Part shown: piece after piece, positions 43,713-52,078 of the stretch | How the letters are laid out: the number at the start of each line of letters is the position of its first letter | Numbering within the stretch: position 1 is the stretch's first letter | Assembly (NCBI RefSeq): GCF_000443995.1 | Contig: NZ_AUMC01000003.1 | Coordinates: forward strand, 1-64,000 | Source: Bacteriovorax sp. BAL6_X | GTDB taxonomy: Bacteria > Bdellovibrionota > Bacteriovoracia > Bacteriovoracales > Bacteriovoracaceae | Direction of reading: 5' to 3' | DNA: 64,000 nt | Notes under the pieces: generated by a model | What the model saw: the letters and a program-made list of their open reading frames with translations, nothing else | Databases searched by the model: none | What the model was told of the DNA's origin: nothing | Translations under genes and position numbers: made by a program

Positions 43713-44933
43713 ATGACTAAAGGTCTCATAACTTCTTTATTGTTTTACATGTTTACGTTGCTCGTTGCATTCGATGCAAATGCGCAGAGCTATGCAAATT
43801 ATTCAAAGCGTGACCATGCAAACTTACTTGATGAATCTTGTAAAAAAGGAAATCAATCAAGCTGTTTTGAGCAAGGACTTCTTTATCAAACGTTTACTGA
43901 TAAGAGCTTTAAACAGGATGGTATAAACTACGCCTCAGAAGGAAAGAAATTAATTATTAGTGCCTGTGATAATGGTGAGCAAAATGCTTGTGACTATAGA
44001 AAAGGTGCTGAGTTATTTGAAAGTTCGCAACTTCTCATGTGGGCCGGAATTATCCTTATTGGAATTGCCGTCTACATTGTGACGCAAATGATGTTTCAAG
44101 ATAACGAATCATTTCAAGCGGCACAAAAACTAGAGGAAGGCGGCTCTAAAAAAACTGATAACGTTAAGAAACACGGTTTTGTTCTCCAATACTCAAGGCC
44201 TTTCTTTAAACGCTATATTTCTCCAATTGTTTCCTCGATGAAGAGTAAGAAGAAAATTAAAGAGAAGTATAAAAGAAAGTTAGCAAGTGCTGGGTTAACA
44301 GAGGACATGTCACCTGAAGATTTCTTTGCCTTTAAGTTATTTCTTATCATTGGTTTCCCAATAATGTTTTTAGCAGTAAGAGAATTTACTGAAGCAGATT
44401 GGAAGCTATCATTAATACCAGTCATGGCACTTGTGGGATTCTTATATCCTGATATTTGGATTAAAGGAAAGATTGAACAACGCCAAAAAGATATTATTAA
44501 TGGTATGCCATTTTCTGTTGATATGTTGGCCCTTTCTGTAGAAGCAGGATTAGATTTTATTGCTGCTATGACAAAAGTTGTGGATAAGGCGAAACCAGGT
44601 CCACTAACTCAAGAATTTGAAATTCTTCTTAAGGAAATTAAAATTGGTGCAAGTCGTGCTGAGGCTTTAAGAAATATGGCCTGGCGTGTGGATTTAATTC
44701 AAATATCTTCATTTTGTGCAACTCTAATTGCTGCTGATTCAGTTGGTGCTTCAATTGGACCAATTCTAAAAGCGTTATCAATTGAAATCAGACAAAAGAA
44801 GTCAGCACAGATTGAAAAAGAAGGTGCGACTGCTGCTACTAAAATTTTATTTCCGATGATGGCCTTTATTGTTCCTTCTGTCTTACTAATGATTTTTGCT
44901 CCTCTAGTTGTTGAGCTTGTGGGTGGGAAATAA
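43713..44933 (+). CDS. tadC: TadC-like type II secretion F-domain protein with extra N-terminal domain
   Basis: Inner-membrane protein (406 aa). The C-terminal two-thirds is a GspF/TadC domain (VDMLALSVEAGLDFIAAMTKV, then LIAADSVGASIGPILKALS) of the kind used in Tad pilus platforms. Uniquely, it is preceded by a signal peptide (about 1-25, ending ANAQ) and by an approximately 75-residue secreted segment with two Cys-containing repeats, SCKKGNQSSCFEQGLLYQ and ACDNGEQNACDYRKGAELF, similar to Sel1-like repeats. A transmembrane helix follows at about 105-127. No ribosome-binding site is visible. It heads the DUF192-FHA-PP2C operon; tadA and tadB are not in the window. Confidence 0.85.
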   Translation: MTKGLITSLLFYMFTLLVAFDANAQSYANYSKRDHANLLDESCKKGNQSSCFEQGLLYQTFTDKSFKQDGINYASEGKKLIISACDNGEQNACDYRKGAELFESSQLLMWAGIILIGIAVYIVTQMMFQDNESFQAAQKLEEGGSKKTDNVKKHGFVLQYSRPFFKRYISPIVSSMKSKKKIKEKYKRKLASAGLTEDMSPEDFFAFKLFLIIGFPIMFLAVREFTEADWKLSLIPVMALVGFLYPDIWIKGKIEQRQKDIINGMPFSVDMLALSVEAGLDFIAAMTKVVDKAKPGPLTQEFEILLKEIKIGASRAEALRNMAWRVDLIQISSFCATLIAADSVGASIGPILKALSIEIRQKKSAQIEKEGATAATKILFPMMAFIVPSVLLMIFAPLVVELVGGK

Positions 44934-45271
44934 TGAAAATAACTTGTAATGGAATTGATATCTGTAAACAAGCTATTGTTGCAGACTCTTTTTACAAGAA
45001 GTTAAAAGGTTTAATGTTTTCGAAAGGCATGGATGGATTTGATGGAATGATTTTTTATGGAACTAATGCGATTCACACTTGCTTTATGAATTATAAAATC
45101 GACGTTGTGTTCTTTAACAGTAAGAACCAAATAAAGAAAATATACCGTGGATTAAAACCGTGGAGACATACGCAAATTGTTTTTAGTGCCAGTCGTGTAC
45201 TAGAGTTAGCAGAGGGACAGTTGCCTCAAGAGATTAAGGAAGGGGATACTCTAGAGTTATGTATAAATTAG
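44933..45271 (+). CDS. DUF192 family protein
   Basis: Small protein (112 aa) of the DUF192 family, recognised by KLKGLMFSKGM, the MIFYGTNAIHTCFMNYKIDVVFF strand pair and the VLELAEGQ segment. No signal peptide is seen, whereas many DUF192 proteins are exported. Its function is unknown. It overlaps tadC by one base (TAATG) and overlaps the following FHA gene by 13 bases, so all three are coupled. Genes of this family are repeatedly found near Tad-type loci, but I cannot verify that here. Confidence 0.85.
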   Translation: MKITCNGIDICKQAIVADSFYKKLKGLMFSKGMDGFDGMIFYGTNAIHTCFMNYKIDVVFFNSKNQIKKIYRGLKPWRHTQIVFSASRVLELAEGQLPQEIKEGDTLELCIN

Positions 45272-46830
45272 TTGTTGTAGCTGGTAAGCTACGTGGACAA
45301 GAATATATTTTAGAGGAAGGGGAAAACACCCTAGGACGCTCAGAAGAATGTAGTGTTCACTTTCCTGTAAATGGTGTTTCAAAAAAACACTTATCAGTAA
45401 CCGTCACGCAAGATGTTGCTTTTGTTAAAGACCTTGGTAGTTCAAATGGTACTTTTGTTAATGGTAAAGCTGTAAAGAGGGCCACTGTTAAAAATGGTGA
45501 TAAAATTGCGCTTCCGGACTCTATTCTTCAAGTTGTCTTTGTTAAAGAGAAAAAGAAAATCATTAAGAAAAGAATTGAGGCCGTAGAGGAAGATGATGAG
45601 CCAACATATATCACTGGTGGTGAAATGCCAGAGAATATTTTTGGAAAAATTATCTGGCTTTTTAAATATCGTTTAATGCCACTTGTTCATGGTATCAATG
45701 AAGAGTATGAGTGGCGTGTTCTAACTGGTATTTTACTGGCAATCTTTGTAGTTGTTACGGTAACACTTACTATTTTTCCCGTTATGAAGACTTCACAAAG
45801 TTTACTTCTTTTAGAAGTTGCTAAGCGTGGAGCTCATTATGCTGATGAAATTAAGAGACAAAATAGAGGCGCTCTTGCCAGAAAAGATCTAGATCGAGTT
45901 GATACGAAGTTTATGGAACAAGGAAATAACGGCGTTGTTTCTTATGATCTATTTGACATTGATGGACGAATTGTAAGACCTCTTACAAAACTTAATATGT
46001 ATATTGATGATCCCTTTTCTGTTCAAGTTAGAGAGTGGGCCGAAAGGACTATGAAAAGTGCTGATGATCTCCCAATGGTAAGTCGTTTATCAAATGGTGA
46101 AATTGGAATTGGTCAAAAGATTAAGGCAACTAATGTTAAAACAGGACAGCTCGATGTTGTAGGTGTAATTGCGATTAGATTTAAGCCTTCGTCAATTGCT
46201 GATGAAGCGTCGAAGAGTCGTGTTGCTTATCTAGAGGCACTTATTACTTCCTTTATTGCTTCCATAGTCTTCTTTGCAATTGTCTACTATATGACAATTA
46301 GGCACTTAGATGAAATGAAGTTTCAGATTGAAGAAGCTTTGAGAGGGAATCGTAAGAGTGTTGATAGTGAATATCTTTGGTCTGAGATAGATCCTTTAAG
46401 GTCGTCGATTAACTCAATGATTCAACGAATTAGAGAACTACAAAAAACTGATGATGAAATGAGCTTTGATGAAATGGAAAGTGATGAATCCTATGTTTCG
46501 AGCTTATATGAGTTCATGCAGGGAGCGCAGGGGGCAGTGCTTGTTCTAGATTCTCAAAAGAATCTGTCTCATATTAATACACTCGCAGAGGATATAACGG
46601 CGATACGAGGGAGTTCTTCTGAAGGAATGAGCCTCCTAGATGTGGCACGTGAAAAAGGATTTGCGGCAACTATTATTGAATTATGTGATGCCTCTGCTGA
46701 CAATGGAGGAACGTCTCAGAAGGGTGAATATGAACTTTCTGGGCACTTTTATAATATTTTTGTTACGAGTTTAATAGGGCGAGATAATTTTGCTAAAGCG
46801 TTCTATGTTACACTAATTAAAGAGGACTAA
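45259..46830 (+). CDS. Membrane FHA sensor protein with PAS-like domain
   Basis: A 523-residue protein. An intact N-terminal FHA domain has Gly26-Arg27, Ser41/His44 and Asn63-Gly64, the residues that read phosphothreonine. A Lys-rich linker leads to transmembrane helix 1 (154-175), an extracytoplasmic region of about 150 residues, helix 2 (about 325-347) and a cytoplasmic C-terminal part with a PAS-like segment (QGAQGAVLVLDSQKNLSHINTLAEDI). This is the layout of a sensor kinase, but no kinase domain follows. The start overlaps the DUF192 gene by 13 bases. Confidence 0.83.
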   Translation: MYKLVVVAGKLRGQEYILEEGENTLGRSEECSVHFPVNGVSKKHLSVTVTQDVAFVKDLGSSNGTFVNGKAVKRATVKNGDKIALPDSILQVVFVKEKKKIIKKRIEAVEEDDEPTYITGGEMPENIFGKIIWLFKYRLMPLVHGINEEYEWRVLTGILLAIFVVVTVTLTIFPVMKTSQSLLLLEVAKRGAHYADEIKRQNRGALARKDLDRVDTKFMEQGNNGVVSYDLFDIDGRIVRPLTKLNMYIDDPFSVQVREWAERTMKSADDLPMVSRLSNGEIGIGQKIKATNVKTGQLDVVGVIAIRFKPSSIADEASKSRVAYLEALITSFIASIVFFAIVYYMTIRHLDEMKFQIEEALRGNRKSVDSEYLWSEIDPLRSSINSMIQRIRELQKTDDEMSFDEMESDESYVSSLYEFMQGAQGAVLVLDSQKNLSHINTLAEDITAIRGSSSEGMSLLDVAREKGFAATIIELCDASADNGGTSQKGEYELSGHFYNIFVTSLIGRDNFAKAFYVTLIKED

Positions 46831-46836
46831 ATATAA

Positions 46837-47835
46837 ATGGTTGCCGCAATTAGAATGACAAAGAATTTATCTTCCCCAGAGTCTTCTGGGCAATACCACC
46901 GTATTATTTGTATGACTGGTAAGAATAAAGGTATTTGTTATTACCTAAATGGTAACCGAGTAGTTCTTGGTCGTTTAAGCTCAAATGACATTCAAATTCT
47001 TGATACTCAAGCTTCACGTGAACATATTGAATTAACACGTGTAAATAATGAATACACATTAACAGATCTTAAATCTCAAAATGGTGTGATGGTAAATGAC
47101 CTTAAGGTTACTCAACACAAGCTAAAGTCTGGTGATAAAATTATAGTTGGCTCGACTGTTTTCAAATATTCTTTTATTGAAGTGAAAGAAGAGAAGGCCC
47201 TCGTTGAATATGAAGATCCAGAAGAGGATGAAGAGGACGAGGAAGAAGAGGAAGAAGTAAAAAAGAAGGCCAAACCTAAGAAAAAGAAAGGCCCTGCTAC
47301 TCCAGAAGAGAAACGAAAAAAAATGATCTATATAGCAGTTGCTGTCATGGGTTTATTCTTTTTTATGGATGGAGACGAGACTAAGACAAAGAAGGCCAGT
47401 GTAAAAAAAGAAGGTAGTACGATTATTGACTCTTCTAATAGTAATACTGGTCGTAAGTATGTAGAGGACTTTGAAACACAAGAGAAAGTTGAAGCCTATG
47501 TTCATCGTGGTAGACGTGAGGCACGAGAAGGTAACTATTTTAGAGCTATGCAAGAGTTTAACTTGGCTTTAACTCTCGATCCAAATGATGGTAATGCTGC
47601 TTATCACTTAAATATTGCAAAGCAAAGGCTTGATGAAAAAATCAAAGATATGTTTGATCAAGCAACTAAGAATAAAGATTCGTTGAAGTACAATAGAGCA
47701 TTGGGAACGTATTGTGCAATCTATAAGCTTTTAATTGAATATAAGACAGATGAACGCTTTATCGAAGCTAAGAAAAACGTTGAAGATATGGCCGAAAAAT
47801 TAGGGATGAAAAAGAGTGATAATTACTGTTTCTAA
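46837..47835 (+). CDS. FHA protein with single membrane helix and TPR-like tail
   Basis: A 332-residue protein with an intact FHA domain (Gly45-Arg46, Ser60/His63, Asn81-Gly82), an acidic run at 123-139, a Lys-rich stretch, one short membrane helix (162-176), and a C-terminal TPR-like region of about 100 residues (GRREAREGNYFRAMQEFNLALTLDPNDG). With the FHA domain in the cytoplasm, the TPR tail would be periplasmic. The 20 or so residues around the membrane helix resemble those of the next FHA protein (KRKK, then helix, then an acidic DG motif), indicating a duplicated module. It is followed by a 20-base overlap. Confidence 0.83.
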   Translation: MVAAIRMTKNLSSPESSGQYHRIICMTGKNKGICYYLNGNRVVLGRLSSNDIQILDTQASREHIELTRVNNEYTLTDLKSQNGVMVNDLKVTQHKLKSGDKIIVGSTVFKYSFIEVKEEKALVEYEDPEEDEEDEEEEEEVKKKAKPKKKKGPATPEEKRKKMIYIAVAVMGLFFFMDGDETKTKKASVKKEGSTIIDSSNSNTGRKYVEDFETQEKVEAYVHRGRREAREGNYFRAMQEFNLALTLDPNDGNAAYHLNIAKQRLDEKIKDMFDQATKNKDSLKYNRALGTYCAIYKLLIEYKTDERFIEAKKNVEDMAEKLGMKKSDNYCF

Positions 47836-50059
47836 ACATGGAACGATTCTTAATCGTATTGAGATTAATGATCAAGTGATCATGGGGCAGAGCTCTAGTT
47901 TCCTAATTGGTCGATCTGATGAGGCCCATGTTCATTTGGATGATCCTCAAATTTCACGAAGACTCGCTAGCTTAAATTTTAACGGTGTAAGTTGGACACT
48001 TAATAAATTATCAACTTATGATACTGTCTTAGTTAATAATGCTCCTATGTTTCTTGAAGAGATTTCTGTCTCAAGTGGCCACTATCTTGTTTGTAATGAC
48101 TATAAGGTTTTATTTGAAAGCCTTGAAGTCGAAGAGCAGGATGCTCAAGAAAGTATTGAACCAGAATTGCCGGAAGATGTTTTTGAAGATGTGGAACCAG
48201 AAGATTCACTAGAAGAGGAAGAGACGGCCATTATTGATGGCCCGGTCGAGAACTCATCTGATTTTGAAGAAGAGACTCAGGCTTTTGATGATCCTACACA
48301 AGACTCTACTCATGAAGAAGAAGGTGAATTCGGAGCTTCTGAAAATATAGAAGCTCAAGAAGGCGACTTTGATGAATTCGGTCAGCAAGAAGATGGTTTT
48401 TCTGATGGGTTCGATGAAAACTATGATGAGAATTACGATGGTGACTATGACGACAACTATGGTGATGAATCATACGATATTGATACATTAGACGATGATG
48501 TAGGCGATAAAACTCAAGTTTTCTCAGGCTTTGCTAATTTTGTTCTTGAGCTTTTTGGTGAAGATGTTCCTTATGACCATTTTAACCTTGATTTACCAGA
48601 GACTTATATAGGGCGTGATCCAAGTAAGTGTCAGATTGTTTTAACGGACCCTGAAGTATCTTCTGTTCATGCTGTCATTAGAAAAAATAAAATTACGTGT
48701 ATTTTAGAAGATTTACAATCTGCTAATGGGACGATTTTAAACGGTAAGAGGATTAATCAGAAAGAAATCACAAATGGTGATGAGTTCATTATAGGTTCAA
48801 CGACATTTACAGTTAAAATTGCAAGTGACTTTATCAAGAGTCAGCAAGATATGCTGATGCCTGTAGAAGATAACCAGGTTATTGAAGTAGAAGAAGTAGT
48901 CGAAGTATCGGATGATGATGAAGATTTTGATGATCTTGAACTATCTGGTATTCCTACGGCAAGTGAAGAAAAATCTATCATTAAGAGAATTCTTAATGAC
49001 CCAGAAAAACGTAAGAAAGTTTTAATTTATACTGTCGTACTTCTTGGTGTCTATATGTTCCTATTTCCAGATAGTGGAGAGAAACCAAAAGCAACAGCTA
49101 AAGATAAACAAGCAAAGGAACAAAAGAAGAAACAGGTTGTCACCTCTGTCGATAAGAAGCTTACAAAAGAACAACAGGAGAAAGCTGAGGCCCTCTATCA
49201 GTTAGCAACTCGTTATGCTAATGAAGGAAATGTAGCAGAGGCAATCACTGAATTTGAAAGATTATTCCTAATTACTAAAGATTATAAACAGGCCCAGACT
49301 TTTTATCAGTTGGCCAAAGATAAGTATGCAGAGCTTGAAAAGGCAGAGCTTGAAAGACGTGCAGAAGAAAAGCGAAAGCTCATTCAAGCTAAAGTTAAGG
49401 ATCTACTTGATAAAGCAACAGAAGCTGTAAAAGAGCGTAATGTCACTTTATCACGTGGTTTATTTCAACAAATAAAAGAACTTGATCCAAATAACTATGA
49501 CGTTGCTAATCTTGAATTAGAATTAGACTCTTATATTAAAGAAAAGAATAGAAAAGAGCTCGAAGAAGCTCAGAAGAAAGCGGAAAGACAGCGTATGGTT
49601 GATGCACTAAAGCCTGGAGAAACGCTGTTTCTTCAAGAGGAGTGGTTTAAGGCCATTGGTGCTTTGGAGTTATTCATAAGTGAAAAGTCGATGGATGAAG
49701 ATCTTATGAAGAAAGCAATCGATATGTTGAAGAAGTCTCGGCAGAATCTAAAAAATATTACTGGGCCATTACTTGGTAAGGCCCGTTCTTTAAAAGAGGC
49801 GGAAGATCTTAAGGCTTCTTATGAAGTTTTTAAAGAGGTTTTGCGCTATAATCCTAATGAACTGGATGCCCAAAGTGAACTAGATGATATTAATGATATA
49901 TTAACGAGAAGGGCAAGAAAGGTATATCGGCAGGGCCTAATCTCTGAGTCGCTTGGCTCTTTTGAAGATGCTCGAGAGAAGTTTCAAGAGGTACAACAAA
50001 TTTCACCAATTGATAACGAATACTACCTAAAGGCCAGTGAAAGGCTGAAAAACTTATGA
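47816..50059 (+). CDS. Double-FHA membrane protein with long TPR/coiled-coil tail
   Basis: A 747-residue protein starting at GTG 47816. The first FHA domain has Gly32-Arg33 but Leu50 in place of the His, and no Asn-Gly, so it looks degenerate. A 125-residue Asp/Glu/Tyr-rich linker (105-230, with repeated NYD/DYD) follows. The second FHA domain is intact (Gly266-Arg267, Ser282/His285, Asn304-Gly305). A membrane helix lies at 402-417. The rest (430-747) is TPR-like and coiled coil, predicted periplasmic. It is probably a phosphoprotein-binding scaffold. It overlaps both neighbours. Confidence 0.83.
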   Translation: MIITVSKHGTILNRIEINDQVIMGQSSSFLIGRSDEAHVHLDDPQISRRLASLNFNGVSWTLNKLSTYDTVLVNNAPMFLEEISVSSGHYLVCNDYKVLFESLEVEEQDAQESIEPELPEDVFEDVEPEDSLEEEETAIIDGPVENSSDFEEETQAFDDPTQDSTHEEEGEFGASENIEAQEGDFDEFGQQEDGFSDGFDENYDENYDGDYDDNYGDESYDIDTLDDDVGDKTQVFSGFANFVLELFGEDVPYDHFNLDLPETYIGRDPSKCQIVLTDPEVSSVHAVIRKNKITCILEDLQSANGTILNGKRINQKEITNGDEFIIGSTTFTVKIASDFIKSQQDMLMPVEDNQVIEVEEVVEVSDDDEDFDDLELSGIPTASEEKSIIKRILNDPEKRKKVLIYTVVLLGVYMFLFPDSGEKPKATAKDKQAKEQKKKQVVTSVDKKLTKEQQEKAEALYQLATRYANEGNVAEAITEFERLFLITKDYKQAQTFYQLAKDKYAELEKAELERRAEEKRKLIQAKVKDLLDKATEAVKERNVTLSRGLFQQIKELDPNNYDVANLELELDSYIKEKNRKELEEAQKKAERQRMVDALKPGETLFLQEEWFKAIGALELFISEKSMDEDLMKKAIDMLKKSRQNLKNITGPLLGKARSLKEAEDLKASYEVFKEVLRYNPNELDAQSELDDINDILTRRARKVYRQGLISESLGSFEDAREKFQEVQQISPIDNEYYLKASERLKNL

Positions 50060-50799
50060 GAGAAATTCAAAGTTTCTTTGCAAGAACACATCAGGGTCCT
50101 TATTTAAATCTAAATGAGGACAATACTTTCATTAATCTTAAACAAAAAATTTTTGGTATTTTCGATGGCTTTGGTGGGTCTGGTATTTCTGATCGAAACT
50201 TAGAAAGTGCTAAGAAATCAATTGATACATATTTCTCAAAATTATCTGGTGATCCAAATGCGACAATGCCGTATTTCTATTCACCGCAATATGTGTTAGA
50301 GACTAATGCCTTAGTGAACGCAATTTTTATTGCACATAAGAACCTTCTCGATATCAATAAGACTAAACCTCTCAAGGATAAGGGAGGCGTTTCGGCTGCA
50401 TTAACTATGTTGTCTGAAAATATTCTATCAATCGTTTCATGTGGCAACTGCCTCGTTCTCATGTACCGTGATGGGGATCTGTCACTAGTTAATACTCCTG
50501 ATTGTGTTACGCAAATTTCGATTTCAGATAATTCACATCAAAAAAGTACCTTCCCTTTAGTGGCTTTGGGTTTATATGATGATATTGCTCCTAAGATTTG
50601 GGAATTAAATGTTGAACCAAATGACCGCATTATTGTTTTGAGTGATGGTGTATACGGGAGCCTGAGCCTTCATGATATTAAGAGAATCATTCAAGAGTCA
50701 TCTCAAGATGAAGTTATTCAGATCGATAATCTATTTGATGGGGCCAATCGTCGAGGTAATCTAGATAATCAGTCAGCTATTATCTATTCAATCATCTAG
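50056..50799 (+). CDS. PP2C-family protein phosphatase
   Basis: Metal-dependent Ser/Thr phosphatase (247 aa). Motifs in order are NEDN at 20-23 (the usual EDR/QDN position), FDGFGGSG with Asp37-Gly38, ALTMLSENILSIVSCGNC, the late DRIIVLSDGVYGSL and the final DNQSAII; all metal-binding aspartates are recognisable. It starts in the stop of the double-FHA gene (ATGA). It would reverse the phosphothreonine marks that the upstream FHA domains read. No matching kinase lies in the window. Confidence 0.87.
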   Translation: MREIQSFFARTHQGPYLNLNEDNTFINLKQKIFGIFDGFGGSGISDRNLESAKKSIDTYFSKLSGDPNATMPYFYSPQYVLETNALVNAIFIAHKNLLDINKTKPLKDKGGVSAALTMLSENILSIVSCGNCLVLMYRDGDLSLVNTPDCVTQISISDNSHQKSTFPLVALGLYDDIAPKIWELNVEPNDRIIVLSDGVYGSLSLHDIKRIIQESSQDEVIQIDNLFDGANRRGNLDNQSAIIYSII

Positions 50800-50872
50800 A
50801 AACATACCGTAATCATTAAAACTGTCTCTTGCTTAGCTGGATTTTTTGCGTAACAATATATTGAGGTTTTAT

Positions 50873-52078
50873 ATGAGTAAAAAGGTATTAGTTGCTGACG
50901 ATAGTCAGACAATCCAAAAAGTAATAAATATTACATTCGCAAATCAAGATTTTGAAATTGTTTCAGCTCTTGATGAGTCAGAATTATTTTCTAAAAGTGA
51001 TGACTTCGATCTTATTCTTCTTGATTTTGGCCTATCTGATGATGGCTATAAATTAGGAGAAGAGACTCGTAAGAAATTTCCTACAACACCTGTGTTAGCG
51101 ATGCTTGGTACATTTGATATCGTAGATGAGAATAAGTTACGCGCTAGTGGATATTCAGATAAGGTTGTTAAGCCATTTGAAACGGAGAAATTTATTTCTC
51201 TATGTAATGAGCTAATCGAAAGTGGTGTGCCAGATATGGATACATCAAACGAATCTTTTGAAGATGGTCAAGAAGACTTTGAGAGTAATGATCAAGAAAC
51301 AGAAGATAACTTTTCTGGCTGGGATGTTGATAGCTCAATTGCCCAATCTGAAGAAGATAAAACACAAGAGTTTGATCTTTCAGCAAATAATACATTCGAT
51401 GGTGACTCTGAGGATTTAGATAATAATTTACAGTCTGAATTAGATGGTTGGGGCTTTGATCCTACAAATCTTAAAGGAAGTGATGTAACGAAAGAATTTG
51501 ATTCATTTCCACCTGTTATTGATGGTCTTCCTGAGGATAAACAAGATGATGTTTCTTCTGTGTTGGATGTAAGCAATTACTTTGGAAACTTGGATGATGA
51601 TTTAGGGGATGACTTTGACCTTACAGAACCTGAGCAAGAGGAATCTGAAGAAATAACTTTTGAAGCTTCGGCCGAAGATGATCAAGACTTTGAAGAAATT
51701 TCTGATGAAAACCTATGGGATGCAGATGAAGAGTCTACAGAGATGTTTTCATCTCCTGAAGAAGATGAGCACGAAATCAATCTTTCGTCAGTTACACAAA
51801 TGAATGATGATTTTTCATTTGGTTCGTCGGCGACTGCATCAATCAATACTTCAGCTTCAGCAGCTCCTGCTACTTCGGCACCACCCGTAGACGTTGAAGA
51901 GCTTAAAGCTGAGCTAAGAAACGAAGTTGCACCAATTATTGAAAAATATGCTCGTGAATATTGTGAGCAAAATATTGAAAAAATTATTTGGGAAATCGTT
52001 CCTGATCTTGCGGAAAATCTTATTAAGAAAGAACTTAAAAATATTAGTAAGCAAGTCTTAACTTCAATTTCAGAATAG
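50873..52078 (+). CDS. Response regulator with acidic linker and conserved C-terminal helix
   Basis: A 401-residue protein with a complete receiver domain (1-120): Asp9/Asp10, phosphoacceptor Asp51 in ILLDFGLSDDG, and the DKVVKPF lysine. An approximately 200-residue, strongly acidic, low-complexity region follows, then a helical end (VEELKAELRNEVAPIIEKYAREYCEQNIEKIIWEIVPDLAENLI). The IWEIVPDLAE motif recurs in receiver proteins of Myxococcus-like and other deltaproteobacterial chemosensory systems. No DNA-binding domain is present. ATG 50873 follows TGAGG; the frame also opens at 50846. It may share function with the FHA operon 73 bases upstream. Confidence 0.87.
   Translation: MSKKVLVADDSQTIQKVINITFANQDFEIVSALDESELFSKSDDFDLILLDFGLSDDGYKLGEETRKKFPTTPVLAMLGTFDIVDENKLRASGYSDKVVKPFETEKFISLCNELIESGVPDMDTSNESFEDGQEDFESNDQETEDNFSGWDVDSSIAQSEEDKTQEFDLSANNTFDGDSEDLDNNLQSELDGWGFDPTNLKGSDVTKEFDSFPPVIDGLPEDKQDDVSSVLDVSNYFGNLDDDLGDDFDLTEPEQEESEEITFEASAEDDQDFEEISDENLWDADEESTEMFSSPEEDEHEINLSSVTQMNDDFSFGSSATASINTSASAAPATSAPPVDVEELKAELRNEVAPIIEKYAREYCEQNIEKIIWEIVPDLAENLIKKELKNISKQVLTSISE

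Follow-up and report, generated by a model that had tools for sequence, protein, structure and literature searches.

The window, meaning the whole 64,000-nucleotide stretch of DNA analysed here, belongs to a Bacteriovorax genome of 3.23 Mb in 10 contigs (G000), the closest named relatives of which are Bacteriovorax sp. MedPE-SWde and DB6_IX. Six genes lie back-to-back on its plus strand between 43713 and 50799, in the order tadC-DUF192-FHA-1-FHA-2-FHA-3-PP2C. The genes and their spacing are as an earlier note on this DNA described them, with overlaps of 1, 13, 20 and 4 bases and a 6-base gap between FHA-1 and FHA-2, and Pfam recognizes T2SSF and DUF192 in the first two products, FHA in three proteins, and TPR in FHA-2 and FHA-3. 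The features of the block and of its downstream neighbour are the following.

43713..44933, + strand: tadC, inner-membrane platform protein of the Tad (type IVb/c) pilus machine (Pfam T2SSF, 4.6e-16)
44933..45271, + strand: DUF192 protein, 112 aa (Pfam PF02643, 2.5e-16), kept between tadC and FHA-1
45259..46830, + strand: FHA-1, 523 aa (Pfam FHA, 1.9e-15; AlphaFold2 pLDDT 84.2)
45328..45513, + strand: FHA domain of FHA-1 (Pfam)
45784..46230, + strand: predicted periplasmic sensor domain of FHA-1, Cache/extracytoplasmic PAS fold (AlphaFold2 pLDDT 89.6, pTM 0.82)
46486..46821, + strand: C-terminal PAS-like domain of FHA-1 (weak Pfam PAS, 0.036; model residues 410-521)
46837..47835, + strand: FHA-2, with FHA domain, charged linker, single short membrane helix and TPR-like tail (Pfam FHA, 1.4e-16; TPR_2, 3.1e-4)
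47816..50059, + strand: FHA-3, with two FHA domains, single membrane helix (402-420) and TPR tail (Pfam FHA, 5.9e-25 in two stretches; TPR_2, 6.1e-8)
48512..48514, + strand: codon of Thr233 of FHA-3, proposed phospho-acceptor (from conservation)
48605..48796, + strand: second FHA domain of FHA-3 (in the order, Arg267 and Ser282 in 81/84, Asn304 in 80/84)
50056..50799, + strand: predicted PP2C-type phosphatase with intact metal ligands, orthologue of Bd0475
50846..52078, + strand: response-regulator protein with a long acidic linker (Pfam Response_reg, 4.6e-10)

Among sampled loci the block is conserved throughout a phylum made up mainly of predators. Sampling of 136 loci yielded 108 with more than 8 kb of room downstream of tadC, which served as the denominator for synteny. 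The full six-gene order is present in 100 of the 108, from the order Bacteriovoracales (hereafter the order), from other orders and from Bdellovibrio, and a further seven have the first five genes only; these counts are not independent, because some genomes enter by more than one sampling route. The sole exception is a Bacteriovoracaceae locus (L158) with tadC at 491-1378 and unrelated genes downstream. Median intergenic gaps within the order are -1, -13, 3, -20 and 2 bases. In light of the conserved order and the near-zero gaps, it was concluded that the arrangement goes far beyond chance; the six families are clustered across the phylum, and the scattering among related genomes that the earlier note would have taken as refutation did not appear. 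Scans of the operon gave uninformative numbers, close to expectation, of promoter-like sites (26 versus 23.1 expected) and of terminators (3 versus 3.9 expected). The block also lies at about 440 kb in a single-contig genome of 3,782,950 bases (G132, locus L238) that we take to be B. bacteriovorus HD100; there the first five genes were identified by profile and the sixth by profile-profile comparison. The response-regulator gene adjoins the block in most loci of the order and was not found in the sampled loci outside it; it is a linked neighbour, outside the core block.

The lead gene is a secretion/pilus platform component, as had been proposed, with a T2SSF match and no other TadC-like gene in the genome. 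Of 129 genomes of the order, 123 have a match to it, among them all 73 of good quality, and its N-terminal extension is not common to all orthologues. Besides TadC, the T2SSF family is represented in G000 by TadB and by a pair of two-domain proteins, each of about 405 aa and of the kind seen in type II secretion or type IVa pili. By Pfam, contig C9 holds TadB, a TadZ-TadA fusion, a secretin and RcpC, without TadC, and a Flp-like pilin ORF and a prepilin-peptidase-like ORF were recognized there from reading of the ORFs only. In the fusion, ParA-like and T2SSE domains are joined in one 748-aa protein (L057 6673-8919, on C9). The Tad component set of the genome thus comprises TadA ATPase, TadB, TadC, secretin, RcpC, and a putative pilin and prepilin peptidase. 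The earlier note had suggested looking for tadA/tadB and a Ser/Thr kinase in the same organism, and TadB, the TadZ-TadA fusion and three Hanks kinases were indeed found. No single Tad gene cluster was found in G000, tadC lying on C3 and the remaining Tad genes on C9. Tad genes usually form one cluster, an arrangement that is not strictly defining. The split does not exclude a Tad system, because a split is also reported for the Kil apparatus (PMC8460266).

The FHA proteins and an invariant threonine

In the AlphaFold2 model of FHA-1, an FHA domain is followed by a long membrane helix, a periplasmic domain of alpha-beta fold and another membrane helix, after which come a coiled coil and a PAS-like domain. 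The pocket residues of its FHA domain are kept within the order (Arg27 in 91/93, Ser41 and Asn63 in 93/93), and all three are present in 39 of 39 sequences outside it. The FHA-1 profile matches 350 of 369 phylum genomes, some of the weak matches outside the order possibly reflecting the FHA domain alone. No Pfam family over the cut-off matches the sensor domain. Because the isolated domain has no Foldseek match under E 0.001, its assignment to the Cache fold depends on a second aligner, which places it close to the extracellular domain of WalK (7dud; Z 12.1, rmsd 3.0, 130 residues) and to PctD (Z 12.2, rmsd 3.0, 129 residues). From the first membrane helix onward, the best Foldseek match of FHA-1 is a WalK model (9a5d, E 1.2e-12). 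Neither Pfam nor the model gives a HisKA or HATPase match in FHA-1, a protein of 523 aa that stops after its PAS-like domain. As modelled, the protein looks like a WalK-like receptor without its histidine kinase.

FHA-2 and FHA-3 have the topology claimed for them earlier, a single membrane helix followed by a TPR tail, whereas the picture of FHA-1 has been refined to two helices, a periplasmic domain and a PAS-like end. The membrane helix of FHA-2 falls, in the window sequence, under the 1.5 hydropathy threshold of the scan. In the FHA-2 pocket Arg46 and Ser60 are present in 89/89 sequences of the order and Asn82 in 88/89; outside the order Asn82 is found in 29/37. FHA-3, the orthologue of Bd0474, has two FHA domains, so the block has four. 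The earlier note had counted three intact phosphothreonine-reading FHA domains: three FHA proteins and three complete Arg/Ser/Asn pockets were found, but the domains number four, and the first FHA domain of FHA-3 retains the phosphate-binding Arg and Ser and lacks the canonical SxNG loop.

The two FHA domains of FHA-3 are separated by an acidic linker of about 150 residues, within which Thr233 is a threonine in 82 of 82 sequences of the order and in 31 of 34 others; no other conserved Ser or Thr was found in the linker across these same sequences. It lies in the motif acidic-(K/S)-T-x-(V/I)-hydrophobic, the Bd0474 version being DEKTMIGVA. The tail peptide of DgcB that was crystallised with its FHA domain reads EKpTSIVA (PMC6733907), a likeness that is suggestive as a match between short motifs and is not proof. 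In GarA and OdhI the acceptor threonine likewise precedes the protein's own FHA domain (PMC6733907), and FHA-3 has this feature of GarA/OdhI/DgcB-type switches, a conserved candidate acceptor in a flexible stretch ahead of an FHA domain.

Candidate eraser and writer

The earlier note ended the operon with a phosphatase, and comparison of sequences favours that assignment. The Pfam match from the single sequence is weak (0.0025), and the family profile can be aligned over its whole length with bacterial PP2C phosphatases of known structure (best 8.7e-14). All four metal-ligand aspartates are present in the window; within the order Asp22 and Asp37 are found in 81/81 sequences, and Asp197 and Asp237 in 75/81. 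Two of the four are changed in the sixth gene of two order members (L066 and L069). In Bdellovibrionia-type loci the metal ligands are lost. The sixth gene there is homologous to the window PP2C (hhalign probability 97.8, E 9.7e-13), and its product is, to judge from these residues, probably a PP2C-derived, inactive protein; an eraser step is therefore not universal. Elsewhere in G000 a small kinase gene is followed directly by a second PP2C gene (L025 1429-2938, near C3:481729).

No Hanks kinase is encoded in the window, as had been stated, and three elsewhere in G000 exceed the Pfam cut-off. The family has a match in all 54 sampled genomes, over the cut-off in 53; G197, which is 93% complete, has the block and no kinase over the cut-off. 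In 14 of 14 fetched loci a kinase of about 610-760 aa could be aligned with the one at C3:346452-348371 of G000, and this conserved kinase is the only family match in G004, G039, G303, G316 and G320. The single kinase over the cut-off in G132 is 41% identical to it over 403 residues. The alignments point to one transmembrane Hanks kinase common to the phylum, which may serve other substrates only. In Bdellovibrio, Bd3148 has been named as a possible DgcB kinase; it is expressed in attack phase, and its interruption affects predation (PMC6733907). The conserved kinase of G132, at 3,060,256, is presumably Bd3148. Close upstream of the conserved kinase of G000 lies a gene for a GYF and PilZ domain protein (L262 354-1145; C3:344353-345144).

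Predatory counterparts and a proposed switch

In B. bacteriovorus this operon has been described as Bd0470-Bd0475 (PMC12034629; also PMC6561027), and the six genes are its counterpart in Bacteriovoracaceae. Insertion mutants of Bd0470 (tadC) and Bd0474 neither kill nor round prey, killing is restored by complementation, and the Bd0474 mutant retains prey attachment (PMC6561027). Bd0075 is a partner of Bd0474 confirmed by two-hybrid (PMC12034629). In G000 the best match to Bd0075 is weak (22% identity over 312 residues) and no orthologue is clearly recognizable over the full length, so this partner is not claimed for G000. Like the GYF and PilZ protein near the conserved kinase, Bd0075 starts with a GYF-like domain. 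The statement in the earlier note that no named system has this composition fails on the Bdellovibrio operon, and FHA proteins are also part of the Kil system of Myxococcus (PMC8460266). The match to Bd0470-Bd0475 accordingly led us to drop the view that this is a novel system lacking named relatives; the operon, known from the literature, is not itself new.

The Kil Tad apparatus of M. xanthus is split over gene clusters and includes FHA proteins (PMC8460266, PMC12075869). One of these, KilD, is essential for killing (PMC8460266, PMC10433427) and gathers into foci where prey is contacted in the absence of Tad parts (PMC8460266). No kinase work on KilD turned up in a search of the literature.

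The block may be a phosphothreonine switch module that gates a split, Kil-like predatory Tad machine, a reading to which we give an even chance. A periplasmic signal, perhaps from prey contact, would be sensed by FHA-1 and would reach a transmembrane Hanks kinase as well, separately from or together with FHA-1. The kinase, encoded elsewhere, would phosphorylate Thr233 of FHA-3, and at least one of the module's FHA domains (those of FHA-3 itself, FHA-1 or FHA-2) would bind the phosphothreonine, thereby rearranging the complex around TadC. FHA-2 and FHA-3 could then relay the change to envelope parts through their periplasmic TPR tails, and PP2C would reset the switch by removing the phosphate from Thr233. 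We infer these steps from the protein families present and from the mutant phenotypes in Bdellovibrio, the need for prey killing being drawn from B. bacteriovorus. Of the phosphothreonine-gated membrane scaffold pictured in the earlier note, a phosphothreonine-reading module tied to a Tad machine stands, and the word scaffold undersells the receptor-like FHA-1. More tentatively, and with some doubt on our part, one phylum-wide transmembrane Hanks kinase might mark both the FHA-3 threonine and the similar DgcB tail on prey contact, so that a single phosphothreonine signal would arm the Tad machine via TadC and start c-di-GMP signalling, with PP2C resetting the system where it is active.

A first alternative does without any phosphate switching: the FHA proteins would be permanent structural components of the Tad basal body, in the manner of the FHA-like domain of YscD in type III secretion. 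All three FHA proteins also match the Pfam model of the YscD cytoplasmic domain, the combination of a single helix and a periplasmic tail resembles YscD-type topology, and the degenerate PP2C of Bdellovibrio implies that dephosphorylation by PP2C is dispensable there. We nevertheless consider a purely structural role unlikely, given that each of the four FHA domains keeps its phosphate-binding Arg and Ser nearly without exception, that one linker threonine of FHA-3 is invariant and that PP2C retains its metal ligands in 75 of 81 order members. A low probability likewise attaches to the proposal that the phosphothreonine recognized by the FHA module is carried by proteins encoded elsewhere, such as those of gliding or polarity, and that the module places the Tad machine at the pole or contact site: the invariant acceptor-like threonine within FHA-3 offers a nearer ligand, even though KilD foci in M. 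xanthus arise at prey contact without Tad parts (PMC8460266) and another FHA gene of G000 clusters with TPR and ExbD-like genes (L060 5708-7594, on C10) that are possibly gliding-related.

Least probable, and in our view distinctly so, is that the module feeds or shares the DgcB pathway of c-di-GMP signalling, with TadC in the operon for joint expression only. The phylum-wide coupling of tadC to the FHA genes argues for a joint machine, as does the need for both Bd0470 and Bd0474 in killing; on the side of c-di-GMP are the DgcB-like FHA-GGDEF gene of G000, the GYF-PilZ gene near the conserved kinase, and DgcB itself, which has a similar phospho-tail and governs invasion (PMC6733907). The DgcB-like gene of G000 lies at about C3:412631-413537 (L058 7632-8537) and encodes the N-terminal tail MSDDATLVLTD.

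Relation to known systems

The comparison bears on how, in Bdellovibrio and Myxococcus, prey contact is converted into the assembly or firing of the pilus that kills. The authors of the Kil work point to FHA proteins, with no kinase, acceptor site or sensor named (PMC8460266). The present comparison offers candidates: FHA-1 (Bd0472) as sensor, Thr233 and its equivalent in Bd0474 as acceptor, the conserved kinase as writer and PP2C, degenerate in Bdellovibrio, as eraser. No description of these proposed parts was found in the literature searched. Whereas the operon was known in Bdellovibrio, the additions made here are all computational, namely the receptor-like character of FHA-1, the invariance of Thr233, the shared kinase and a PP2C that is intact here and degenerate in Bdellovibrio. 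Together, they suggest that a signalling switch with a sensor, phosphate readers and an eraser is coupled to a pilus machine needed for prey killing.

Several known systems share parts of this design. The stretch of FHA-1 that starts with the first membrane helix and runs through the PAS-like domain resembles the WalK/YycG sensor kinases, but FHA-1 lacks the histidine kinase and has an N-terminal FHA domain instead. GarA and OdhI of Actinobacteria are among the closest solved FHA folds and have their acceptor threonine ahead of the FHA domain; unlike the proteins of the block, they are soluble metabolic regulators without a membrane helix or TPR. The Bdellovibrio FHA-GGDEF protein DgcB (PMC6733907; 6hc1) shares a tail with a conserved threonine in a similar motif before the FHA domain, and a link to prey invasion, but is a soluble diguanylate cyclase encoded outside any Tad operon.

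The closest relationship is to Bd0470-Bd0475, with the same six genes in identical order, of which tadC and the two-FHA/TPR gene are needed for killing in Bdellovibrio. The sequences are distant (profile scores of 257 bits for TadC and 150 bits for FHA-1), and the sixth gene lacks metal ligands in Bdellovibrio, whereas it encodes an intact PP2C in Bacteriovorax. With Kil of Myxococcus xanthus, which is needed for contact-dependent prey killing, the shared features are split Tad clusters and several FHA proteins, and both are present in the Bacteriovorax genome.
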